Source: an uncultured Rhodospirillaceae bacterium | GTDB lineage: Bacteria > Pseudomonadota > Alphaproteobacteria > Rhodospirillales > Magnetospirillaceae | Length of the DNA stretch: 56,978 nucleotides | Reading direction: 5' to 3' | Assembly: GCA_903899885.1 (NCBI GenBank) | Contig: CAIULK010000088.1 | Span: 1 to 56,978 of the forward strand | In this document: positions 1 to 12,450 of the stretch, piece after piece | Numbering within the stretch: the first letter of the stretch is position 1 | Layout: every line of letters starts with the position of its first letter | Notes under the pieces: model-generated | Databases searched by the model: none | What the model saw: only the letters and a program-made list of their open reading frames with translations | Told to the model about the DNA's origin: nothing | Program-made: the position numbers and the translations under genes

Positions 1-45
1 GAACTTATGGGTACTTTCCATACCGAACTTATGGGTACTTTCCAT
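1..45 (-). repeat. Tandem 21-base repeat at left edge, possible start of a truncated gene
   Basis: The same 21-base sequence occurs at 1-21 and 25-45, separated by three bases, so the period is 24. On the minus strand each copy reads as ATG followed by codons for ESTHKF, in one open frame (MESTHKFG MESTHKF) that runs off the edge. A third copy lies in the 5' end of the epimerase gene at 1938-1958. It lies 4 bases downstream of the kinase stop codon. It may be the start of another gene, or a contig-end assembly artefact. Confidence 0.6.
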
Positions 46-49
46 CGGG

Positions 50-832
50 CTATAAGCGCACATGGACTTTGAAAGCGCCGGGCACAGGTTCTTCCGATAC
101 CACATACAGATACCCCCCGCCGCAGCCTGAATACATGGCCCCGGCATATCGCTGCTGGTAGTAACCCAACAATTCCATCAAGTCCATCGTGATGAGCGGG
201 TGGCGAACGGTACGCGGCAGGATGGTTTCCCAGCAAGACATACATTCGTTGAAAGATGCACCCAGGGCGATTGCATCTTTTTCGAAAATGGCTTGATAAC
301 AGGCATGCCCACTCTGGCCAAGCCGCCGGATCCACTCCGCATCGAGGTTATCATCCGGGCTGAAGGGGTTATATCCAACCGGCCGGGGCGCCACGGGCAA
401 AACATTAATAACGCCTTCCAACCAGCCAGCCGTTTCGGGATCGTTATTTGACTCTACATGCGCCGGAAAATAACCGCCTGTGTATTGGAAATCATAATCC
501 AGGCGGTTGATGCCTGGGTAGATCAACCCGGCCATATCCTGCGAACCAGACGGCTCAGATTTGCCCTCATTTTCGGCCGCGTATAGCTCCTGTACCATCC
601 GGGCCGGATCGCCCCTGGGCAGGCCTCCGTCCCACAGGCGGCTTGCCACCTGGCGTGTACTGGTGCCCATTCCGCAGCGATCCATAAACCGGAATTCGGG
701 CAGGACCCCAACCACGACCATCGCGCCCGGCGGAGTGGGGTTATGCCGTGAGATAAACGGTTGGTCGATCCAGCCACCGGCCAACGCGAGCCTGTAAGGG
801 ATGTTACTGATGATCTGCGTGATCTCGGCCAT
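50..832 (-). CDS. GHMP-family sugar kinase, stand-alone paralogue
   Basis: A 260-residue protein of the galactokinase/mevalonate kinase (GHMP) superfamily, HddA-like group (COG2605), expected to use ATP to phosphorylate a sugar in the cytoplasm. Visible motifs are the N-terminal IPYRLALAGGWIDQP, the phosphate-loop equivalent CGMGTSTRQ, the acidic motif GSQDMAGLIYPG and the C-terminal SGCGGGYLYVV. It is clearly homologous to the C-terminal domain of the fused protein at 3388-4530. I chose the ATG at 832 because the longer frame to 868 would start inside a strong hairpin. The substrate is unknown; the neighbouring epimerase, importer and mutarotase suggest an aldohexose or 6-deoxyhexose (inference). 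Confidence 0.75.
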   Translation of the reverse strand: MAEITQIISNIPYRLALAGGWIDQPFISRHNPTPPGAMVVVGVLPEFRFMDRCGMGTSTRQVASRLWDGGLPRGDPARMVQELYAAENEGKSEPSGSQDMAGLIYPGINRLDYDFQYTGGYFPAHVESNNDPETAGWLEGVINVLPVAPRPVGYNPFSPDDNLDAEWIRRLGQSGHACYQAIFEKDAIALGASFNECMSCWETILPRTVRHPLITMDLMELLGYYQQRYAGAMYSGCGGGYLYVVSEEPVPGAFKVHVRL

Positions 833-850
833 AGGTTTTTTTCCGCGAAA

Positions 851-887
851 CCCGCGGCCTGTTCTCAAGTTGGGAACAGGCCGCGGG
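851..887 (-). terminator. Perfect 14-bp hairpin between epimerase and kinase genes
   Basis: Arms at 851-864 and 874-887 (CCCGCGGCCTGTTC and its complement) enclose a 9-base loop. The GC-rich stem lies between the stop of the epimerase gene and the start of the kinase gene. No T-tract follows on either strand, so it may act as an RNA-stabilising or attenuating hairpin rather than a classic terminator. Confidence 0.6.
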
Positions 888-902
888 ATAAGGAGAGGAT
901 GA

Positions 903-1970
903 TTAATCGATCACAACGCGTTTGCCAGCCTTGCGGTCAACATACTGCTGCTCAATCCAGGCATAGGTTTTGGTAAGTCCATCGCGGAAAGAGGTCTTTG
1001 GTTCCCAACCCAACATCTTTTGGATGAAAGTATTATCGCTATTGCGCCCAGCCACACCGCGCGGCGCATTCAGATCATAACTGCGTTCCAACTTCACGCC
1101 GCCGATTGATTCTGCAATACTGACCAGTTCGTTGACCGAGATCAGCTCACTGGAGCCCAGGTTGATGGGCGTTGCCAGCAACGCATCGCAGTGCATGATC
1201 ATGTCGATGCCCTTGACGCAGTCTTCAATATACATATAGCTGCGGGTCTGGTGTCCGTCACCCCAGATCGTGATTTCAAGTTTACCGGTGTCCTTGGCGC
1301 TGATGACCTTGCGCGTGATGGCAGCGGGCGCCTTTTCACGGCCACCATCCCAGGTGCCATTCGGGCCGTACACATTATGGAAGCGAGCAATAAAGGTTTT
1401 CATACCGCGTTCGGCGGTATATTCCTGGCACATCATCTCGGACATCAGTTTTTCCCAACCGTAACCGCGCTCGGCAAAAGCCGGATAAGCATCGCCTTCA
1501 CGCAGCGCGCGCACATTTGGATCCTGCTGGAGCTGGGTATTGTACGCGCAAGCAGAAGATGAGAAGAAGTAACGCTGAACCCCGGCGCGGTAAGCGGATT
1601 CGAGCATGTGGGTATTGATCAGAATGCTGCGCATGCACTCAACGCGGAAGCGTTCGATAAAGCCCATACCACCCATATCGGCTGCCAGATTGTAGACTTC
1701 CGTGGCGCCTTCCACGGCGCGGATGCAGTTCTTTTCCTGGCTCAAATCCATGCACAAACATTCCACACCGGGCACGCGCTGGTACCACTCCGGCAGCGGT
1801 TTCTTATCGACAGCTCGCAGATTGGTAAAACCTTGATCGTGAAAATAGCGCACAAGTGAACCCGCGATAAAACCACCTGCGCCAGTTACAACGATAAGAT
1901 CGTCTTTTTCAAGATTCGGATCGGTTGCTGCAATACTGAACTTATGGGTACTTTCCATCATGTTAGTCAT
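903..1970 (-). CDS. GDP-mannose 3,5-epimerase-like NAD-dependent epimerase
   Basis: A 355-residue extended short-chain dehydrogenase/reductase. The NAD-binding TGAGGFIAG is near residue 30, followed by NLAADMGGMGFI, then SSSACAY and YGWEK (catalytic Ser/Tyr/Lys), FHNVYGPNGTWDGGREKAPAA and GDGHQTRSYMYIEDC. These blocks are the signature of plant and bacterial GDP-mannose 3,5-epimerase, which makes GDP-L-galactose (and GDP-L-gulose) from GDP-D-mannose. The ATG at 1970 has an AAGGAG site about 7 bases upstream. Residues 5-11 are encoded by the 21-base repeat also seen at 1-45. The true nucleotide-sugar substrate is unproven; a related NDP-sugar is possible. Confidence 0.85.
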   Translation of the reverse strand: MTNMMESTHKFSIAATDPNLEKDDLIVVTGAGGFIAGSLVRYFHDQGFTNLRAVDKKPLPEWYQRVPGVECLCMDLSQEKNCIRAVEGATEVYNLAADMGGMGFIERFRVECMRSILINTHMLESAYRAGVQRYFFSSSACAYNTQLQQDPNVRALREGDAYPAFAERGYGWEKLMSEMMCQEYTAERGMKTFIARFHNVYGPNGTWDGGREKAPAAITRKVISAKDTGKLEITIWGDGHQTRSYMYIEDCVKGIDMIMHCDALLATPINLGSSELISVNELVSIAESIGGVKLERSYDLNAPRGVAGRNSDNTFIQKMLGWEPKTSFRDGLTKTYAWIEQQYVDRKAGKRVVID

Positions 1971-1995
1971 TTTTTTCTCCTTGAGGAATAATCCC

Positions 1996-2017
1996 TACGA
2001 TTTACTGGGAAATCGTA
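1996..2017. promoter_or_regulatory. Inverted repeat upstream of the epimerase gene
   Basis: TACGATTT at 1996-2003 and AAATCGTA at 2010-2017 form a perfect 8-bp inverted repeat with a 6-base spacer. It lies between lacI and the epimerase gene and could be an RNA hairpin or an operator. It does not match the LacI-type operator found elsewhere in the window. Confidence 0.35.
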
Positions 2018-2058
2018 CAAGATTCGTTTGGCGTCCAGAACCCGCAGGTTCAGAACAT

Positions 2059-3075
2059 TTATTTTAAAGTTTCGATTTTTACACCGCTTGATTTCCGGAC
2101 AATCAAAGTGGTGGGAAATACAATATCCTGAAAGTCATACACTTGCGTAGCAGCCAGGCGTTCGATCAATAACTCCGTAGCCCTGGCGGCCATTTCATAA
2201 ACCGGCTGCGCCGCCACCGTCAAAAATGGGGATATCACCAGAGATTCGGGTAAATCATCAAAGGTTACCACGGCCATGTCTTCGGGCACCCGTAGACGCG
2301 CGTCTTCCAGGGCGCGCAAGACACCCAGCGCAATAAAGTTATTGCCCGCGAACAAAGCCGAGGGGCGGGGGGTCATTTCCAGAACCTGGCGGGCCATCTC
2401 AGCGCCGCTGGCGCGGGTAAACGCGCCAAAGATGACCGACTGGCTGGCAGTATCCAACCCGGCATCTGCCAGAGCCCGATTGAAGCCTGTAAAGCGATCA
2501 GCAGCCGTGGAGACATTTTGCGGGCCGTTCAACAGGGCGATGTGAGTATGCCCGAGTGAAATCAGCAATTTCGTCAGTTCGTAGGCGCCATTCAAAGAAT
2601 CGCAGCGCACCTGGTCAACTTTCTGGCTGGATACATGCCGGTCCACCACCACCACCTGCACGCCATTCTGCTGGAGCGTTTCAACCGACTCAGAGTCGGA
2701 GCCGCTCGGCACCAGTACAACCCCATCCACCTGGTTTTGCATCAGAACCTGGATGTAGTTCTGTTCCTTCTGTTTGTCTTCGTCCGTGTTACAAAAAATG
2801 ACAGTATATCCGGCCCGGCTGGCGACATCTTCCACACCGCGCGCCGCCACAGTGAAAAACGGGTTGGTGATATCGGTCATGACCAGAGCCAGTACCTTGC
2901 TGCGCTTGGAACGCAAACTGCCCGCCAGCCGGTTGGGTACATAGCCCATTTCCTTGACTGCCGCCAGGACTCGCTGACGAATATCTTCACTGGCATACCC
3001 GGAGTTATTGATCACCCGCGAAACGGTGATCGAGGCCACCCCGGCGCGTCTGGCGACATCGTGGATGGTTGTCAT
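2059..3075 (-). CDS. LacI/GalR-family transcriptional repressor
   Basis: A 338-residue regulator. The N-terminal helix-turn-helix IHDVARRAGVASITVSRVIN is followed by the hinge helix region NRLAGSLRSKRS near residues 48-60 and a periplasmic-binding-protein-like sensor domain (for example DITNPFF and TFDDLPESLVISP). Family members bind about 14-16 bp palindromes and are released by a sugar or sugar phosphate. A perfect palindrome of that kind lies 27 bases upstream of the start codon (3102-3115), which suggests autoregulation. Related sites in front of the ABC operon and fucU suggest it controls the whole cluster. The ATG at 3075 has no strong ribosome-binding site. Confidence 0.92.
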   Translation of the reverse strand: MTTIHDVARRAGVASITVSRVINNSGYASEDIRQRVLAAVKEMGYVPNRLAGSLRSKRSKVLALVMTDITNPFFTVAARGVEDVASRAGYTVIFCNTDEDKQKEQNYIQVLMQNQVDGVVLVPSGSDSESVETLQQNGVQVVVVDRHVSSQKVDQVRCDSLNGAYELTKLLISLGHTHIALLNGPQNVSTAADRFTGFNRALADAGLDTASQSVIFGAFTRASGAEMARQVLEMTPRPSALFAGNNFIALGVLRALEDARLRVPEDMAVVTFDDLPESLVISPFLTVAAQPVYEMAARATELLIERLAATQVYDFQDIVFPTTLIVRKSSGVKIETLK

Positions 3076-3101
3076 CTTTCAAACCTGGGCGCGAGATGAT
3101 G

Positions 3102-3115
3102 TGGTATCGATACCA
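3102..3115. promoter_or_regulatory. LacI-type operator upstream of lacI
   Basis: TGGTATCGATACCA is a perfect 14-bp palindrome with the central CG typical of LacI/GalR operators. It lies 8 bases past the proposed -10 box of the lacI promoter. Near-copies occur at 8489-8502 and 8799-8812 and a half-site at 8568-8581. Confidence 0.75.
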
Positions 3116-3122
3116 TGTTGTT

Positions 3123-3152
3123 ATGATATCACAAGATTGCAAAATTTTACAA
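3123..3152 (-). promoter_or_regulatory. Proposed promoter of lacI
   Basis: On the minus strand, TTGTAA (3152-3147), an 18-base spacer and TATCAT (3128-3123) give a moderate sigma-70-type promoter. The palindromic operator follows immediately. Confidence 0.5.
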
Positions 3153-3286
3153 GGGAATTGGTGAAATTTCTTACAAACAGGTGCGCCGTATTTCCCAATT
3201 ACGCCGCCCACCGGCCGGGTAAGGCTGATTAAAGTGGTTCATCTGCTTGCCAACCAGGCAGAGCCTCGCTGCTCTGAAGAAATAAA

Positions 3287-3315
3287 AAATTCGCCGCGCA
3301 AGTGACGGCGAATTT
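3287..3315 (-). terminator. Rho-independent terminator, distal of two
   Basis: A 10-bp stem (3287-3296 with 3306-3315) encloses a 9-base loop. On the minus strand it is followed by a run of six T and TATTT. It lies downstream of the fused kinase gene. Confidence 0.8.
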
Positions 3316-3335
3316 GGAAATAACGGTATAAAACC

Positions 3336-3368
3336 CACGGTCACAAACACAGTGGATTTGTGACCGTG
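3336..3368 (-). terminator. Terminator-like hairpin directly after the fused kinase gene
   Basis: A 12-bp perfect stem (3336-3347 with 3357-3368) encloses a 9-base loop and is followed on the minus strand by GGGTTTTAT. Together with the hairpin at 3287-3315 it forms a tandem terminator. Confidence 0.7.
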
Positions 3369-3387
3369 AAGGGTATAACCGGGCGGC

Positions 3388-4530
3388 TCAGTCGCTTTCG
3401 CGGCGTATGCTGATGCGCACGGCATCCTGGATGGGTTTGTCTGCCACCAGGATCAAATAGCCCCCGCCTCCTGCGCCGGAAACCTTCCAACCCAGCGCAT
3501 CTTTGCGATACATATTGATCAACTCCAGCATGGTATCGGTTACCATGTTTGGGAACATTGCCACCTGGGCCTCATAACTCCTGCGCAGGCTGTGCCCAAA
3601 TGCAGCGATATCCCTGTCCAAAATCGCGCTCCAGCAGGCTTCAGCCGCATCCGCCAGCGCCCGGGCCCCTTCCAATGTGATATGGGTATTATCCAGCACA
3701 TGATAGCCTGAAGGGCGCGGGCTCAACGGAATCAGGTAAAAAGCTTCTTCAATAAAATTCAAGGTGGCTTCATCCTGACAAGGACTGATTTTCACCGGCC
3801 AGTATTTACCGGCGTAATCTGCTTTGGCCAGACCCGGGTAAATGATTCCGATCGAATCCTGGGAACCTGAAATTTCTTTCGTGCCAGGAGGGTTATCGTA
3901 GGCAAACAGCATTTTCGCAAGCTTCTCATAGTTATCCATTGGCAGCCGGGCGCCCCACATCTCCACCGCCGAAGCGCGTGTACTGGAGGCCATGCCACTC
4001 CGCTGGTTAAAATCAATGGTGGGATGGATCGAAACAGTAATTACCGGCCCGGGGTAATGTTGTGAAACAAAAGGTTGATCAAGCCAGCCACCCGCGATAT
4101 CAATCCGGTAAGGGATGGTGCTCATCCCGCGCAGGGAGGTCGTGGAACGCGGCAGCAGCCCCGGGTGCGGGTCGCGCTTCAGGATAATATATTCGATCCC
4201 CAGTTCCTCGCACAGTTTACGTTTTTCGAGCAGGTTACCATCTTCATTCACCACAAAATAATCCGGTTGGACCTGCTTTAATTCATCCACAAAATCCAGC
4301 ATCCCGGAGCCTTTGGCGATCAGGACATCCTTGACATAAGACAGGGCCTGGATCATGTATTTTCTTTCATTCTCTTTGTTGATGGTCGGGCGGTTTTTTA
4401 GTTCGAAAACGGTGCGGTCCGAACCAATCGCCACATACAAGTCACCATATTTGGCTGCCTCCTGAAAAAATGCCACGTGACCGCTGTGCAGCAGATCGAA
4501 ACAACCGCTCACAAAAACCTTTTTAGGCAT
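3388..4530 (-). CDS. Fused nucleotidyltransferase / GHMP sugar kinase
   Basis: A 380-residue two-domain enzyme. Residues 1 to about 130 are a cytidylyltransferase-like fold, with FVSGCFDLLHSGHVAFF (the GxFDxxHxGH nucleotide motif) and RSTTSLR as the equivalent of the second signature, as in HldE and glycerol-3-phosphate cytidylyltransferase. From about residue 135 it is a GHMP kinase (IPYRIDIAGGWLDQP, RSGMASSTRAS, SGSQDSIGIIYPG, SGAGGGGYLILV). The pairing suggests phosphorylation of a free sugar at C1 followed by transfer of a nucleotide, analogous to the bifunctional fucokinase/pyrophosphorylase but from different families (inference). GGAGGG lies 8 bases before the ATG. The kinase half is a paralogue of the protein at 50-832. 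Confidence 0.82.
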   Translation of the reverse strand: MPKKVFVSGCFDLLHSGHVAFFQEAAKYGDLYVAIGSDRTVFELKNRPTINKENERKYMIQALSYVKDVLIAKGSGMLDFVDELKQVQPDYFVVNEDGNLLEKRKLCEELGIEYIILKRDPHPGLLPRSTTSLRGMSTIPYRIDIAGGWLDQPFVSQHYPGPVITVSIHPTIDFNQRSGMASSTRASAVEMWGARLPMDNYEKLAKMLFAYDNPPGTKEISGSQDSIGIIYPGLAKADYAGKYWPVKISPCQDEATLNFIEEAFYLIPLSPRPSGYHVLDNTHITLEGARALADAAEACWSAILDRDIAAFGHSLRRSYEAQVAMFPNMVTDTMLELINMYRKDALGWKVSGAGGGGYLILVADKPIQDAVRISIRRESD

Positions 4531-4702
4531 ACCGCTTACCCTCCAATGACAAAATAATTTCTGCTCACCGTGAGCGGCATGGATGGGCGCCAGCCTACCA
4601 GATTACCGCGTTGCAAGACAGGCCTATTATACAGAATAAAAAAAATTAGAGCTGAAATCACACGTTTTTCAATTGAAACACATCCCCACCTATCCTGGGA
4701 TA

Positions 4703-4731
4703 TAAAAAGCTGCCGGCTTTTGACCGGCAGC
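4703..4731 (-). terminator. Rho-independent terminator of the transporter operon
   Basis: The stem GCTGCCGG/CCGGCAGC (4709-4716 with 4724-4731) is followed on the minus strand by TTTTTATA. It lies 25 bases after the stop codon of the binding-protein gene. Confidence 0.85.
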
Positions 4732-4756
4732 CATTTTATTTCAAAAAACGAGCAGC

Positions 4757-5758
4757 TTACTTGTACAGAACTGCCTGGATCTTGGGATCGTCAATGTTGG
4801 TCTTGTCATACCACATGAAGCCGGTATCAATGGTCTTGGGCAGGGTTTCGCCCTTGGCGGCCTTGAGGGCAGCTTCAACGCACTTGTAACCAATGCCGAT
4901 CGGGTTCTGGGTGATGGCGCCCGCTTCGGTACCAGCGCGGATGGCATCCATCTGCTGTTGGCCGGAGTCATAGCCGATTACAACCAGTTTGCCTTCCATC
5001 TTGAGTTCCTTGACAGCGTTCAGAACGCCGATGATCGAGCCTTCATTACCGCCAAAGAAACCCTTCAGGTTCGGGTGAGCCTGGATGATGGCCTTGGCCA
5101 GATCGGTGGATTTAAGCTGATCGCCGCCGCCGTACTGGGTGTCAACGATTTTAATGTTCGGGTACTTGTTTGTGATTTGGTCAGTGAAACCCTTGGTGCG
5201 GTCAATGCCGGTGCGGCTGGTCTGATCGTGCATGATAATGGCGACTTCGCCGGAACCACCGATCAGGGAAGCCATCTTGTCAGCGGCAGTGGCGGCAGCG
5301 GCAATGTTGTCGGTAGCGGCGGTGCTGACGGGGATGTTACTGTCAACGCCGGAGTCGAAACCGATCACGGGGATGTTGGCGGCTTTGGCTTTTTCGAGCA
5401 GGGGTTGGAAGGCCTTGGAGTCAACTGCGGCGAGGCAGATGGCGGCTGGTTTCTTGTCAAGAGCGGTCTGGAACATTTCGACCTGCTTGTCAACCATGGC
5501 TTCGGTTTCTGGGCCTTCGAAGGTCATAGTGGCGCCCAAGTCATTGGCGGCCTGTTCGGCGCCCTTCTTGACTGCTTGCCAGAACTGGTGCTGGAAACCC
5601 TTGGAAATAACCGGGATATAGGGCTTGGCAGCAGCCGCAGCGGGCGCGGTGGTGGCAGCGGCAGCCGGGGCGGCCGGGGCGGCGGCAGGAGCGCAGCCGG
5701 TGATCATGGCAGCAATTGCCACAATTGTTACCAGGGTGAAGATCAATTTCTTTGTCAT
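4757..5758 (-). CDS. Sugar ABC transporter substrate-binding lipoprotein (RbsB-like)
   Basis: A 333-residue periplasmic-binding-protein type 1 protein. It has a signal peptide and lipobox (AAMITGC), then a long Ala/Pro/Thr linker, then the RbsB-like two-lobed domain (SKGFQHQFWQAVKKGAEQAA, IPVIGFDSGVD, GYDSGQQQMDAIRAG). It should capture a monosaccharide outside the membrane for the permease and ATPase encoded just upstream. I chose the ATG at 5758 because GAGGAG sits 7 bases upstream and the signal peptide starts there. The frame remains open to an ATG at 5854, which has its own AGGAGG but almost no spacing. Sugar specificity cannot be read from sequence. Confidence 0.9.
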   Translation of the reverse strand: MTKKLIFTLVTIVAIAAMITGCAPAAAPAAPAAAATTAPAAAAAKPYIPVISKGFQHQFWQAVKKGAEQAANDLGATMTFEGPETEAMVDKQVEMFQTALDKKPAAICLAAVDSKAFQPLLEKAKAANIPVIGFDSGVDSNIPVSTAATDNIAAAATAADKMASLIGGSGEVAIIMHDQTSRTGIDRTKGFTDQITNKYPNIKIVDTQYGGGDQLKSTDLAKAIIQAHPNLKGFFGGNEGSIIGVLNAVKELKMEGKLVVIGYDSGQQQMDAIRAGTEAGAITQNPIGIGYKCVEAALKAAKGETLPKTIDTGFMWYDKTNIDDPKIQAVLYK

Positions 5759-5847
5759 ACTCATTCTCCTCAATTTTTGTTCCTGAATTTTGATTGAATC
5801 TTGAAACTGGGCCAGAGACTTTATTCTGTTTGATATTAATCCACTAG

Positions 5848-5870
5848 TTAACATACCTCCTGAATGTTAA
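5848..5870 (-). promoter_or_regulatory. Inverted repeat enclosing an AGGAGG site upstream of the binding-protein gene
   Basis: TTAACAT (5848-5854) and ATGTTAA (5864-5870) flank the minus-strand sequence TCAGGAGGT. A hairpin would hide this ribosome-binding site in its loop. It lies in the gap between the permease and binding-protein genes. Confidence 0.35.
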
Positions 5871-5881
5871 ATGAATGGGAT

Positions 5882-6871
5882 TTATTTACGACGCCGGCGC
5901 AGAATGTCAGCGTAAACCGCCAGAACAACAATACAACCGGTCACTACCAGTTGCAATTCCTGCGGCACCGAAAGGATGCGCAGGCCATTGGTCAACGTAC
6001 TGATGATAAAAGCACCGATGACCGTTCCAACAATCGAACCCTCGCCGCCACTCAGCGATGTACCGCCGATGACAGTGGCCGCGATGGCGTCCAATTCATA
6101 ACCAGCGCCCAGCGCGGGTTGGGCAGAGTTTAAACGCGCGGCAATCACCACACCGGCCAATCCGGCAAAAAGACCGCACAAGGTGTAAACGCCTATCTTC
6201 CAAGCATCAACATTGACACCCGAGAGACGTGTAGCCTCTTCATTACTGCCGATGGCAAAGTTGTAACGCCCAAAAACGGTTTTTGAGAGGATCAGGTTGG
6301 CGATAATAGCGGCCATGAACAATACCAGCACCGCATTAGGGATATCCAACTTTGGGATAACCTGCCCAATAATGGAGTCCATCGCCAGGCTGCGAAAGAT
6401 CGGGGTATCGTTGAAATAAATAGGTTTCAGCCCCGAGATGACCAGGGCCAGTCCCTTGGTGACGTTTAACATACCCAGGGTGGCGATAAAGGGCGGAATT
6501 TTCATTTTGGCGATCACCACACCATTCACAAAACCCGCCAGACCGCCGGTCAGGATACCGCCCAACATGCCCAACCAGATGGGCCAATGATTATTGGTGA
6601 TAAACACACCTGTCATGACGGCAGAAACGGTCAAAACCGTTCCCACGGACAGGTCAATACCACCCGAGATGATGACAAAGGTCACACCTAACGCCAGGAT
6701 GCCGTTGACCGCCGTAGCCAACAGGATGCCAATTACATTATCAAAAGTCAGGAAATAGGGGGAAGCGATCGAAAAACCGACAAACAAAATGATCAAAGCA
6801 CCGAAAGCCAGCAATCTCTGCATGGCATCCGATCGGAATAAAGACTTTCGAGCTACAGCTTCAATTTTCAT
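5882..6871 (-). CDS. Sugar ABC transporter permease (RbsC-like)
   Basis: A 329-residue integral membrane protein of the BPD_transp_2 family used by ribose-type importers. Hydrophobic segments span most of the length, starting near residue 19 (LLAFGALIILFVGFSIA). Diagnostic stretches are VIISGGIDLSVG near residue 70 and ATVIGGTSLSGGEGS, the cytoplasmic loop that contacts the ATPase. It follows the ATPase gene after three bases, so the two are probably translationally coupled. It would form the homodimeric channel with the ATPase at 6875-8413 and the lipoprotein at 4757-5758. Confidence 0.93.
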   Translation of the reverse strand: MKIEAVARKSLFRSDAMQRLLAFGALIILFVGFSIASPYFLTFDNVIGILLATAVNGILALGVTFVIISGGIDLSVGTVLTVSAVMTGVFITNNHWPIWLGMLGGILTGGLAGFVNGVVIAKMKIPPFIATLGMLNVTKGLALVISGLKPIYFNDTPIFRSLAMDSIIGQVIPKLDIPNAVLVLFMAAIIANLILSKTVFGRYNFAIGSNEEATRLSGVNVDAWKIGVYTLCGLFAGLAGVVIAARLNSAQPALGAGYELDAIAATVIGGTSLSGGEGSIVGTVIGAFIISTLTNGLRILSVPQELQLVVTGCIVVLAVYADILRRRRK

Positions 6872-6874
6872 AGT

Positions 6875-8413
6875 TTAGGCCCTTCCAGCTTCTGGGATAA
6901 GGTTGGTAGAAATAATGCCGCCACGTTGTGTGGCCAACTTCATGATACTTTCCTGTGTGGCATCACCTGCATTCAAAATACCGGTGATGCGGCCTTCGCA
7001 CATCACCACCACGCGGTGGCTCATGCGCAAAACCTCTGGAAGCTCTGACGAGATCATAATGATCGATTTGCCCTGACGCGTCAAATCATTCAGAAGTTTA
7101 TAAATTTCGCTCTTAGCGCCTACGTCAATCCCACGGGTGGGTTCGTCAAAGATCAATATTTCGGTATCCGCTACCAGCCATTTACCAATGACAACTTTCT
7201 GCTGGTTTCCGCCGGAGAGAAATTTCACCTTTTGATCCAGGCTGGGTGTCTTAATGTTGAGGGACTGGGCGTATTTTTGGGCCGTTAAAGTTGTCTGCGC
7301 CATATTGACCCAACCAATCGCATTCAGGAATTTTTTCAAGGAAGCCAGCACAATGTTATCTTTCACGTCCATGCCAACTGTTAGCCCACAGCGTTTGCGA
7401 TCTTCGGAAAGATAACCGATTCCATGTTGGACAGCTTGCTGCGGGCTATGGATCTGCACCCGCTTACCTTTGACATAGAATTCGCCGGCATCATAGGGAT
7501 CGGCGCCAAAAATGGCCCGTGCCACCTCAGTACGCCCGGCGCCCATCAATCCGGCGAAGCCCAGGATTTCGCCTTTCTTCAAGCTGAAACTGATATCCTT
7601 CAACAGGCTGCCCTGCTGCAAGTTTTTTACTTCCAGGACAACTTCCTGGCTGGGATTTTCGGGGAGCTCGGGTGAAGTCTCATAAATGGTACGCCCTACC
7701 ATCATGCTGATGATTTTATCGATGGAAGTCTCGCTGGTTTTGACTGTATCAATATACTGCCCATCGCGCATAACCGTCACCCGGTCGGAGATCTGCTTCA
7801 ACTCCTCCAAGCGATGGGAAATATGCACAATCCCAACGCCCTTGGCACGCAGTTGCCGAATGATATTGAAAAGCTCATCAATTTCCGATTCGGTCAGGGC
7901 GGCCGTTGGCTCGTCCATGATCAAAACCTCAGAGTTGAAAGACAGCGACTTGGCAATTTCAACCATCTGCTGCTTTGCAACCGTCAAATCAGCGACCTTG
8001 GTGCGCGGATCCAACGCCAGGTGCATCGATTTAAAAAGCTCGGCTGTTTTTCTATTTATCTCATCATCGTTGAGAATAATTTTTGCGGTACGTGGTTCAC
8101 GCCCGATAAAAATATTCTGCGCGATCGTGAGGTGATTCATCAGGTTGAGTTCCTGGTGAATGATGCTAATCCCCAAATGCTGGGCAGCACGCGGATTCGG
8201 AATTTCGACCTCTTTGCCCTTAAAATAAATTTTTCCGGCATCCTTACTATAAACACCGGAAAGAATCTTCATCATGGTTGATTTGCCAGCCCCATTTTCG
8301 CCAACCAGCGCATGAATTTCACCGGGCTGTAATTCAAAACGGCACTGGTTAAGCGCATGCACGCCCGAAAAAGATTTGACAATGCCTTCCATCAAAACCA
8401 GTGGTTCGCTCAT
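6875..8413 (-). CDS. Sugar ABC transporter ATP-binding protein (RbsA-like, two ABC domains)
   Basis: A 512-residue cytoplasmic ATPase with two ABC cassettes. The first has Walker A GENGAGKS near residue 40 and Walker [13 protein letters not shown]. The second has the degenerate GLMGAGRTE loop typical of RbsA, the signature LSGGNQQK and [14 protein letters not shown]. It energises import through the permease. I prefer the ATG at 8413, since GAGG lies 7 bases upstream; the ATG at 8419 overlaps that site. It is the first gene of the operon, about 76 bases from a strong promoter with an overlapping LacI-type operator. Confidence 0.93.
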
Positions 8414-8488
8414 AAGCATTCCTCATCCAAAATGATAACTTTTTATAAAATGAGATAACAGGCCGGTATCAGGATAAAATCAGATTCA

Positions 8489-8502
8489 TGGTAACGTTAA
8501 CA
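8489..8502. promoter_or_regulatory. LacI-type operator of the ABC operon
   Basis: TGGTAACGTTAACA matches 11 of 14 bases of the lacI-proximal palindrome. It begins at the edge of the minus-strand -10 box, a position that would block transcription start. Confidence 0.65.
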
Positions 8503-8530
8503 TTGTAAGATTTCACAAGAAGATTGTCAA
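8502..8530 (-). promoter_or_regulatory. Sigma-70-type promoter of the ABC operon
   Basis: On the minus strand TTGACA (8530-8525), a 17-base spacer and TACAAT (8507-8502) form a near-consensus promoter facing the ATPase gene. Confidence 0.8.
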
Positions 8531-8567
8531 GAGCTTAAAATATGGTTAGTGTCACTAATCTGTAACA

Positions 8568-8581
8568 CATAATCGTTATCA
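8568..8581. promoter_or_regulatory. Possible upstream LacI half-operator
   Basis: The right half CGTTATCA is identical to that of the site at 8799-8812; the left half is poor. It could be an auxiliary site for repression loops between the two divergent promoters. Confidence 0.35.
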
Positions 8582-8770
8582 AAATAAGTCTGAAATAAAC
8601 ACCCAGACAAGTACTTATAGTGCAATATCGGTATAAATACGTAATAAATATCTTATTTAAACCCCAAATCGTCATATTTTCGAGTTTATTGATGAATATC
8701 GAGGGGTTGGCATGCCAATCTCAATGCTTAATAACAACCGAAAGTATTTCCAGCAAAACACAAATATTTC

Positions 8771-8799
8771 TTGACTGTATCTCCGGCAGTCACTATAAT
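8771..8799 (+). promoter_or_regulatory. Sigma-70-type promoter of the mutarotase gene
   Basis: TTGACT (8771-8776), a 17-base spacer and a consensus TATAAT (8794-8799) face fucU, which starts 173 bases downstream. The 559-base gap between the ATPase and fucU genes holds these divergent promoters and three operator-like sites; nothing else was recognised there. Confidence 0.8.
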
Positions 8800-8812
8800 G
8801 GTATCGTTATCA
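8799..8812. promoter_or_regulatory. LacI-type operator of fucU
   Basis: TGGTATCGTTATCA matches 12 of 14 bases of the lacI-proximal palindrome and starts at the last base of the -10 box, so it would cover the transcription start. Confidence 0.7.
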
Positions 8813-8972
8813 TTGAATTTTGGCTAAATATTTTCGGATTTACAAGTGAAGGTGCCGCCTGATTGAAATCTGAACAAAAGGCTCCCTGTTAGAAAATTTC
8901 ACCAGTAAAATTGTGTATTTATAAAATAAACAGCGCAAGCAGTCATTAAAATATTGCCTGAGAGAGGTACCT

Positions 8973-9302
8973 ATGCTTAAAGGAATCAGCCCTATCATTT
9001 CACCCGAACTGCTCAAGGTATTGATGGAAATGGGACACGGAGATGAGCTCGTCATCGCGGATGGCAATTTCCCGTCCGCCAGCATCGCCCAGCGCCTGGT
9101 ACGCAGCGATGGCAACAACGTACCCGAACTGCTGGAAGCCATCCTGCAGCTCTTCCCGCTCGATCAATATGTGGAAAAACCCGCCGCGCTAATGGCGGTG
9201 GTACCCGGCGACCCGACTGTGCCGGTCATCTGGGAAGAATACCGCGCCGCGCTTCTTCAGAACGACGCCATTCGGCTGACGCTCAAAACGGAGCTCCTCT
9301 AA
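8973..9302 (+). pseudogene. FucU/RbsD-family sugar mutarotase, 3'-truncated
   Basis: A 109-residue frame. Residues 1 to about 97 match L-fucose mutarotase (LISPELLKVL-like start, MGHGDELVIADGNFP with the catalytic His, PLFPLDQYV, VVPGDPTVPVIWEEYR). Family members are about 140-150 residues and end with a conserved FAFYERA...YGNILLKKG block that carries further active-site residues. Here that block is missing, and the last dozen residues (NDAIRLTLKTELL) do not resemble the family. The truncation coincides with the change in base composition, so it probably marks a junction rather than a functional short protein. Its promoter carries the regulon operator, linking it to sugar anomer conversion before phosphorylation. 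Confidence 0.75.
9240..9302. other. Composition and gene-content junction
   Basis: FucU homology ends near 9263-9270. Immediately afterwards the sequence changes from the moderate-GC sugar regulon to GC-rich alphaproteobacterial genes that continue to the window end. No transposase, integrase, tRNA end or flanking repeat was seen at the join, which favours an assembly chimera over an insertion. Confidence 0.65.
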
Positions 9303-9943
9303 TGGCTGTGCTTGGAACCTCCGAGATTATTCGTCATTTGCGCGATGGATTATTGGTCGTCTCTCCGATCCTGTCGAGGAGTCAAATTGGCCCGGCAAGC
9401 ATTGATCTGCGGATGGGAACCGTCGTTCTGATGCCCCGTTCACGGGGATCGTCCCATGTCGATCCCGCCGCCGCCAAGGCGATGCGAGCCACCACCGGTC
9501 ACGCGCTTGAAATCGACCGCCAACAGAAGCAGGAGCGATACGAAGTTCCGTTCAATGCTCGTTTTTTGCTCCATCCCGGCGCGTTGGCCCTAGTCCCAAC
9601 ATTGGAATGGGTCAAGCTGCCCGGCAATCTCCAAGGATCGGTCACCGCCCGTTCGACATGGGCGCGCGAGGGCCTGAGCATTGCAACCGCGACGTTCATA
9701 GAGCCCGGTTATCAGGGCATCGTTACTTTGGAATTGGCCAATCTTAGCCCCATCCCAATCGCCCTATATCCCGGACTAAAATTAGCGCAAATCGCTTTCA
9801 TGACCGTCGATGGTGAAACGCAGCGGAGCGACAATGGCCAGTTTCACCTGTCTTTCGAACCGAAACAGGGGCAGATCGCCAAGGATGATGAACTCCGTTT
9901 CATCCCGACCCTGCTCGGTTCCGAACTAGCCGCAGACCGCTAA
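9302..9943 (+). CDS. dCTP deaminase/dUTPase-like protein
   Basis: A 213-residue protein of the trimeric dUTPase/dCTP deaminase fold, which supplies dUMP precursor by deaminating dCTP or hydrolysing dUTP. Recognisable parts are ASIDLRMG near residue 35, GSVTARSTWAREGLSIATA near residue 110, IEPGYQGIVTLELANLS (including the catalytic Glu of deaminases) and LYPGLKLAQIAFM. It is longer than E. coli Dcd (193 residues) because of a lysine- and glutamine-containing insert near residues 50-80. The ATG overlaps the stop of the truncated fucU frame by one base (TAATG), so the true upstream neighbour may have been lost at the junction. Exact activity (deaminase or bifunctional) is not certain. Confidence 0.75.
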   Translation: MAVLGTSEIIRHLRDGLLVVSPILSRSQIGPASIDLRMGTVVLMPRSRGSSHVDPAAAKAMRATTGHALEIDRQQKQERYEVPFNARFLLHPGALALVPTLEWVKLPGNLQGSVTARSTWAREGLSIATATFIEPGYQGIVTLELANLSPIPIALYPGLKLAQIAFMTVDGETQRSDNGQFHLSFEPKQGQIAKDDELRFIPTLLGSELAADR

Positions 9944-9950
9944 GACGCGA

Positions 9951-9979
9951 AAGGCCGGGTTTTTCACCCGGCCTTCTTT
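9951..9979 (+). terminator. Rho-independent terminator
   Basis: A 10-bp stem (9951-9960 with 9966-9975, AAGGCCGGGT arm) encloses a 5-base loop, followed by CTTTC. It lies 8 bases after the dCTP deaminase-like gene. Confidence 0.75.
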
Positions 9980-10009
9980 CGTACCGCCGCCAACTTCCTA
10001 CCGGAAATT

Positions 10010-10084
10010 TGGAGCGGGCGAAGGGATTCGAACCCTCGACCCCAACCTTGGCAAGGTTGTGCTCTACCCCTGAGCTACGCCCGC
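10010..10084 (-). tRNA. tRNA-Gly (GCC)
   Basis: The minus strand folds as a 75-base tRNA. The acceptor arm is GCGGGCG/CGCCCGC, the D-arm GCTCAGGGGTAGAGC, the anticodon loop TTGCCAA (anticodon GCC at 10052-10050) and the T-arm GAGGGTTCGAATCCCTT. The discriminator is T and CCA is encoded. Confidence 0.97.
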
Positions 10085-10123
10085 GCTCCGCCGACACACA
10101 TTCGTTCGCGTCGGGAGGCCCGG

Positions 10124-10151
10124 ATAATACGAAAACCGAAGACCGGTGCAA
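10124..10151 (-). promoter_or_regulatory. Promoter of tRNA-Gly
   Basis: On the minus strand TTGCAC (10151-10146), a 16-base spacer and TATTAT (10129-10124) lie 39 bases upstream of the tRNA 5' end. Confidence 0.55.
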
Positions 10152-10240
10152 GCGGTTTTTTTTGCCAAGCGATAACTCTTGCCAGCCGCCCGGCGACACG
10201 CCATCTATTGCCGGGTCACAGAGCTATCGGGGCGATCGTC

Positions 10241-11164
10241 ATGGAGTACATCATCGGTTCCGGCGCCAAGCCCGCGCCGGGGGCGGGAACGGGCGGCGAT
10301 TTCATCAAGGACGGCAGCACCGCCACCTTCATGGCCGACGTTTTGGAGGCCTCGCGCAAGGTTCCGGTCATCGTCGATTTCTGGGCCACCTGGTGCGGCC
10401 CCTGCAAACAGCTGGGACCGGCCATCGAAAAAGTGGTCCGCGAGATGCGGGGCGCGGTGCGGCTGGTCAAGATCGACGTCGATAAGAATCAGGATCTGGC
10501 CGCCCAGCTGCGCGTGCAGTCGGTGCCGATGGTCTATGCCTTCAAGAACGGCCAGCCGGTCGATGCCTTTGTCGGCGCCTTGCCGGAAAGTCAGATCCGC
10601 ACCTTCATCAAGCGGTTGGGCGCGGAGCCCGGCGCGGCACCGGTCGATGAGATCCTCGTTCAGGCCAACGCGTTGTTGGCCGAGGGCGATCCCGAAACCG
10701 CCGCCCAGATTTTTCAAGATATCCTGGCCGAGGTCCCCGATTTCGCCCCGGCCCATGCCGGGCTGCTGCGCTGCTTGATGGCGGCGGGCGACCTTGAACA
10801 AGCCAAACAATTTTTGGCCGCGATGCCCGAGGCGATCGCCAAACACGCCGATATCCTTGCCGTGCGCACCGCGCTGGAGCTGGCCGACAAGGCGGGCAAG
10901 GCCGGATCGTCCGCCGATCTGCGCCGCCGGGTCGCCACCGATCCGGGGGATTTGGCGGCACGCTTCGATCTGGCGATGGCCTATTACGCCGACGGCGAAT
11001 TCGAGGCGGCGATCGACGAGCTGCTGGAGATTTTCCAGCGCAACCGTGCCTGGAACGACGAAGCCGCCCGTAAGCAGATTCTCGAGTTTTTCCAAGCCTT
11101 CGGCCCCACCCACCCATTGACGGTGTCCGGACGGCGGCGGCTGTCGGCGTTGATGTTTTCATAA
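10241..11164 (+). CDS. cnoX: Thioredoxin-TPR co-chaperone (CnoX/YbbN family)
   Basis: A 307-residue protein. Residues about 25-130 form a thioredoxin domain with the intact active site [11 protein letters not shown], followed by tetratricopeptide repeats to the C-terminus. This is the CnoX/YbbN architecture: a cytoplasmic redox-active holdase that protects substrates and works with GroEL/ES and DnaK. An intact CxxC implies thioredoxin-like reductase activity, unlike E. coli CnoX. The ATG at 10241 gives the usual short N-terminal tail; the frame is open further upstream. It starts a three-gene run with the Trm112-like and DUF971 genes. Confidence 0.88.
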
Positions 11165-11178
11165 AGGAGAGGACGGCG

Positions 11179-11379
11179 ATGATCACGGTTCCCGGCCTGG
11201 ACCCGAAATTGTTGGAAATTCTAGTGTGCCCCGTCACCAAGGGGCCGCTGCGCTTCGATGGCGACCGCCAAGAGCTGATTAGCGACAAGGCCGGCTTGGC
11301 CTATCCCATCCGGGACGGCATTCCCATCATGTTGCCCGACGAAGCGCGGGCGTTGGCGGACAGGGAGATCGCGTCATGA
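11179..11379 (+). CDS. Trm112/YcaR-family small zinc-type protein
   Basis: A 66-residue protein matching the Trm112p-like/YcaR family: [17 protein letters not shown] at the N-terminus and [17 protein letters not shown] at the C-terminus. Bacterial members are thought to stabilise or activate methyltransferases. Only one cysteine of the usual pairs is visible (LVCP), so metal binding may be lost. AAAGGAG lies just upstream of the ATG. The stop overlaps the next start by 4 bases. Confidence 0.85.
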
Positions 11380-11822
11380 AGAATTTGGTTCCCGAAAGCA
11401 TCAAGGTGCTGCGGGCGGAAAAACGGCTGGTCATCGCCTTTCCCGGCGGCACCGAATATTCGTTGCCGGCCGAGCTGCTGCGGGTCGAAAGCCCCTCGGC
11501 CGAGGTGCAGGGGCACAGCCCGGATCAAAAAACCTTGGTGTCGGGCCGCCGCGACGTGGCGATCGTCGGGGTCGAGCCGGTCGGCAACTATGCCGTCCGC
11601 ATCCTGTTCGACGACGGGCACGACAGCGGGCTGTACAGCTGGGACTATCTCCACGCCATGGGCCGCGATCAAGACACGCTGTGGGCCAATTATCTGCGCG
11701 ACCTGGAGCAAGCCGGGCTGTCGCGTGAACCCGGCAGCGAGCCCTTGTTGCCGATGTTCGAAAGCGGCGGCTGCGGATCGTCGGGAAAAAAGAGCGGCGG
11801 CGGCTGCGGGTGCGGGCACTAA
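11376..11822 (+). CDS. DUF971 (GBBH-like N-terminal domain) protein with Cys-rich tail
   Basis: A 148-residue protein. The core is the DUF971/gamma-butyrobetaine-hydroxylase-like N-terminal domain ([40 protein letters not shown]). This domain also occurs next to or fused with Mrp/ApbC iron-sulfur carriers. The last 20 residues are Gly/Cys rich ([11 protein letters not shown] then GGGCGCGH), with three cysteines and a terminal histidine suited to metal binding. It overlaps the Trm112-like gene by 4 bases, implying coupled translation. A role in Fe-S handling is inference. Confidence 0.78.
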
Positions 11823-11942
11823 CCGTCTGCCCGCGCAGGAAACAGGCATCGCCCGACCGGGCCGCCTAAGGAATGGGCAAATGGGGGTTTTCGGGGGTGC
11901 CCGAACGGTCGTGAAACCCCGGAACTCCGCCGCTGGGGCCAA

Positions 11943-11959
11943 TCGGCACACCTCTTGAA
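11943..11959 (+). promoter_or_regulatory. Sigma-54-like promoter upstream of glnK
   Basis: TCGGCAC, a 5-base spacer and TTGAA resemble the -24/-12 sigma-54 consensus, with the -24 GG present and the -12 GC replaced by GA. It lies about 150 bases before glnK. The rest of the 289-base gap holds only the hairpin at 12007-12048. Confidence 0.4.
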
Positions 11960-11997
11960 TAGATAGTGGTGCGGAAGGGCTGCCGGATTCCCGGTAG

Positions 11998-12450
<453 letters not shown>

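Follow-up and report, generated by a model that had tools for sequence, protein, structure and literature searches.

A metagenomic alphaproteobacterial contig is very probably chimeric, with a 9,248-base Anaerolineae piece ending at a seam inside fucU

Misassembly of fragments from several sources gives rise to chimeric contigs in metagenome-assembled genomes (MAGs), an error that the GUNC paper (PMC8201837) describes as relatively rare beside mis-binning. The contig analysed in this study is like those described there in that fragments of two organisms stand in one contig, with intact versions found elsewhere, and we see no substantial difference from them, beyond the circumstance that the seam happens here to yield a short fucU-like open reading frame (ORF). 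Two described protein families are also touched by the locus. The first is FucU (PF05025, NF011949), from which the first 92 codons of the seam ORF truly derive; unlike FucU, its last 17 codons belong to another gene of another organism. The second is dCTP deaminase (TIGR02274), the curated cut-off of which is exceeded by the gene next to the seam, although this gene is rare among relatives and overlaps the stop codon of a peptidase gene.

The window, i.e. the whole stretch of 56,978 nucleotides that was analysed, is the entire contig C88 of genome G000, which totals 3,437,273 bases in 269 contigs. The features around the seam are as follows.

1-9248, unstranded: Anaerolineae piece, very probably foreign here, with sugar ABC transporter genes, a LacI-type regulator, an epimerase, a cytidylyltransferase/GHMP fusion gene and the front of fucU (from domains and identity to CAIWAX010000386.1)
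8973-9248, plus strand: 92 codons from the start of the Anaerolineae fucU, which the seam truncates (complete gene in the same Anaerolineae contig)
9249-9276, unstranded: 28 bases that recur at the end of C202, another contig of the same genome (C202 positions 1-28, minus strand; 28/28 identical)
9249-9302, plus strand: 3' end of a weakly M48-like peptidase gene, comprising its last 17 codons and the stop (same frame as the terminal ORF of C202; PF01435)
9302-9943, plus strand: dCTP deaminase-like gene (TIGR02274, 121.3 bits against a cut-off of 92.8; PF22769), its start overlapping the peptidase stop as TAATG
10010-10084, minus strand: tRNA-Gly (gcc), at the edge of a variable slot

Positions 1-9248 match contig CAIWAX010000386.1 (L043, titled as uncultured Anaerolineae bacterium isolate Umea3p4_bin-0630) at 99.924% identity over 9248 bases, with no gaps and seven mismatches (at 850, 852, 867, 872, 1026, 1149 and 7127), and the match stops at 9248. 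Beyond that point the Anaerolineae contig completes its fucU, which encodes 143 residues (counted by hand), the first base already being unlike the window. At the other edge it stops 33 bases past window position 1, amid copies of a 24-base repeat unit. This unit, GAACTTATGGGTACTTTCCATACC, is present in copies at window 1-46 and at the end of L043, and both assemblies stop there. There is also a near-perfect hairpin at window 851-887, in or beside which four of the seven mismatches (850-872) are located.

The cytidylyltransferase/GHMP fusion protein, taken from 3391-4530, recovered 32 loci in a scan of named genomes, the best being CAIWAX010000386.1 with 100% protein identity. The next five carry the titles Chloroflexota, Chloroflexi, Anaerolineales and, twice, Anaerolineae (72, 69, 63, 63 and 60% identity, respectively), and most of the remaining loci have Bacteroidota names. 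Among 149 genomes the fusion gene was found in one, the window's own, and thus in none of the relatives. The gene itself lies at 3388-4530 on the minus strand and combines a cytidylyltransferase-like domain with a GHMP-kinase-type C-terminal part, its relatives occurring in Chloroflexota and Bacteroidota, Tannerella among them; a second GHMP-like copy that lacks the cytidylyltransferase is found at 50-868, also on the minus strand, with 36% identity.

Searching the window's own genome with positions 1-9240 returned the block itself and only 13 short matches (E up to 1), the best of which outside C88 covers 34 bases at 88%. The same genome lacks the 5,282 bases with which the Anaerolineae contig continues past the seam, save for one 62-base match of 82% in the ABC ATPase gene of the window. 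In the reciprocal direction, window positions 9249-12000 gave only two short matches in the Anaerolineae genome (78 and 80%), both tRNA-sized and lying within the tRNA.

Composition changes at the same place, with a GC content of 0.512 at 1-9248 versus 0.653 at 9249-56978. The tetranucleotide correlation between these two parts is 0.567, whereas 20 overlapping stretches of 9,248 bases taken from the right part all correlate with its remainder at 0.973-0.990. For C202 the correlation is 0.990 with the right side and 0.571 with the left side, and for the left block with the remainder of the Anaerolineae locus it is 0.875. The initial annotation, which had two unrelated genomes meeting abruptly near 9240-9302 with a sharp rise in base composition, and which suggested a tetranucleotide comparison of the two sides, is therefore borne out by these values and by the DNA comparison, which narrows that interval to a single base step, 9248/9249, where the Anaerolineae identity ends. 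The further remark that all genes to the right are alphaproteobacterial is backed by the uniform composition of that part and by one protein followed through the relatives, that of a thioredoxin/TPR gene at 10241, which is present in 133 of the 149 genomes, own counted.

The ORF that spans the seam has 109 residues (8973-9302). PF05025 (RbsD/FucU) covers its residues 3-98, corresponding to profile positions 1-95 of 138, with a score of 92.2 against the profile's own cut-off of 25. The NCBIfam model for L-fucose mutarotase, NF011949, scores 100.7 bits over residues 1-97 (profile 1-96 of 140), short of its cut-off of 141 bits, and so the ORF does not belong with full-length FucU / L-fucose mutarotase. 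It had previously been noted that FucU homology ends near residue 97. The truncation stands, but the true break is earlier, after residue 92, from where the window reads RAALLQ and the intact protein RAIIAR, and the profile-matched residues past residue 92 are there by chance.

What lies to the left of base 9249 in the alphaproteobacterial chromosome is indicated by C202. When positions 9000-9600 were searched against the window's own genome, the only match other than self was the 28-base identity at the very end of this contig. C202 differs from the window at base 9248, the same base that ends the Anaerolineae match. The terminal ORF of C202 has 418 codons, is open at the contig end, and finishes in ALLQNDAIR, which are the letters and the frame of the tail of the seam ORF. 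Extended into the window, it continues in frame to ALLQNDAIRLTLKTELL-stop, with LTLKTELL last, giving a predicted protein of 426 residues that scores 20.7 bits against PF01435, for which the cut-off is 20.3, hence our description of it as weakly M48-like. No homologue of this peptidase was found outside its own genome in the 149 genomes or in 385 genomes of the class (two overlapping sets), and there was no match in plasmids or, in a search directed at close relatives only, in viral contigs. Contig overlap of this kind was sought at the right end of the window alone, where none was found, so there is no sign from it that 28 bases is a habitual overlap between contigs of the assembly.

Gene order in a genome of the same family, G008, agrees with this arrangement. 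A single contig there carries matches to the C202 genes hisA, hisH, hisB, hslV and hslU, followed after ~7.7 kb by tRNA-Gly and then by cnoX-like and DUF971-like genes; these gene names are ones that we assigned from our own reading of the proteins, and are presumed accordingly. The tRNA-Gly of G008 is identical to that of the window in 75 of 75 bases and has the same orientation. Reversing C202 and attaching it to the window through the shared 28 bases reproduces the order of G008, with ~10 kb from hslU to cnoX.

Across the family, hslU is present in 50 of 55 genomes, own counted, and by our reading of the search tables hslU shares a contig with cnoX in 17 of 49 relatives. Distances were measurable in 16 of these, G051 being left out since the interval spans the end of its single contig, and the nearer of two cnoX matches being used for G049. 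The distance is below 50 kb in 14 of the 16 and about 145 and 174 kb in the other two. Order and orientation are as in the proposed join in eight of the 16; in the other eight, cnoX is on the other strand (seven) or upstream (one). With only half of the measurable relatives concordant, the hslU-cnoX neighbourhood is loosely conserved, with G008 as the close match. A FAD-dependent oxidoreductase-like gene of C202, found in 70 of the 149 genomes (own counted), proved unsuitable as a marker of synteny: in genomes that are near-complete or in one contig, G018, G027 and G038 among them, it and cnoX lie far apart. In our reading C202 is the true left neighbour of base 9249, on the strength of the 28 shared bases, a single reading frame and the gene order of one closely matching genome.

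We conclude that the contig is almost certainly chimeric, in that 9,248 bases from an unrelated freshwater bacterium of the Anaerolineae (Chloroflexota) have been fused at 9248/9249 to alphaproteobacterial chromosomal DNA. Its parts come from different organisms, as seen in the near-complete identity to an Anaerolineae MAG and in the break in composition. A chimera is strongly favoured because an uninterrupted version of each side exists elsewhere, namely the fucU of the Anaerolineae MAG and the peptidase gene of C202, the latter supported by both the 28 bases and the frame. Of the two options raised in the initial annotation, a chimeric contig and a foreign insertion, these intact versions support the former, and no support was found for the latter. 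The broken-looking sugar gene at the seam is then an artefact and not biology, since the piece was almost certainly joined by error.

Both intact alternatives leave the window sequence at the same base, with no microhomology. No further base is shared at the seam, either between the Anaerolineae contig and the right side or between C202 and the left side, which makes collapse at a shared repeat unlikely and would instead favour a chimeric read or a wrong choice of path. The join may thus have arisen in library preparation or assembly, the likely cause being a chimeric read, acting either directly or by way of a graph branch that it created and that was followed wrongly. The 28-base overlap equals k-1 for k = 29, which would fit a branch point in a de Bruijn graph. 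The Umea3p4 MAG probably belongs to the dataset of PMC8121793. That paper reports the use of Megahit at default settings and Metabat; the unaccented word "Umea" is absent from its main text, which says little as accented spellings were not matched. Undoing the join removes a spurious transfer between phyla together with a spurious short FucU, and gives a corrected list of genes for the seam region. Such seams can be settled without reads once intact continuations of both sides have been found.

Horizontal transfer between phyla does occur, and a recent real transfer, in which an Anaerolineae fragment was inserted in the alphaproteobacterial peptidase gene in some members of the population and C202 represents the uninterrupted allele, would account for DNA that is contiguous in the assembly and for a donor sequence that is near-identical, as expected if the event were very recent. 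We nevertheless consider it very improbable. Both uninterrupted versions exist, and the uninterrupted allele would have to sit in the same bin. The foreign piece ends in the middle of a gene, and a second junction is not seen, colinearity at the left end instead persisting until only 33 bases of the Anaerolineae contig remain; any other border lies outside the contig. Nor are there signs of a mobile element: no integrase or transposase domain was found by Pfam in nine proteins (eight from the left side, including the seam ORF, plus the dCTP deaminase-like protein), and no strong repeat crosses the seam at 8900-9700, where there are one 17-nt direct pair (82%), one 12-nt pair and no inverted pairs. 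This agrees with the earlier remark that no integrase, transposase or repeat marks the join.

That the left block is truly alphaproteobacterial, from chromosome or plasmid, and that it is the Anaerolineae bin, or else C202, that is misplaced, is barely credible even though foreign contigs do occur in bins, as stated in PMC8201837, given that the composition of the block is unlike that of its own genome (0.567 and 0.571) and nearer to that of the remaining Anaerolineae locus (0.875), that the five next relatives of the fusion gene have Chloroflexota, Chloroflexi, Anaerolineales or Anaerolineae titles (72-60%), that no relative of the window's own genome carries this gene, and that fucU is whole in the Anaerolineae MAG.

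With the contig read as a chimera and C202 restored as the left neighbour, the variable slot between hslU and tRNA-Gly contains a row of three genes: a gene of 178 codons for a protein without a Pfam match, the M48-like peptidase gene and the dCTP deaminase-like gene. The first of these and the front of the peptidase gene are on C202 (L003:2-1801), and the end of the peptidase gene and the dCTP deaminase-like gene are in the window (9249-9943). The dCTP deaminase-like gene, which had been reported beside the join and is confirmed there by its TIGR02274 score, is present in only three of the 149 genomes, own counted (E <= 1e-20), the other two copies having 38 and 35% identity. As the peptidase is found in its own genome only, its pairing with the dCTP deaminase-like gene is seen only via the link between C202 and C88. 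PADLOC models returned no families for any of five proteins (E up to 0.1), those of the three-gene row among them, and thus no known anti-phage defence system was recognised. The row could conceivably form an accessory cassette not described before, such as a defence module that works by nucleotide depletion and in which the protease would act as sensor or switch, but we consider this unlikely. Between hslU and the contig end, C202 also encodes an avidin-family protein (L003:5217-5633) and a protoglobin (L003:7182-7916).
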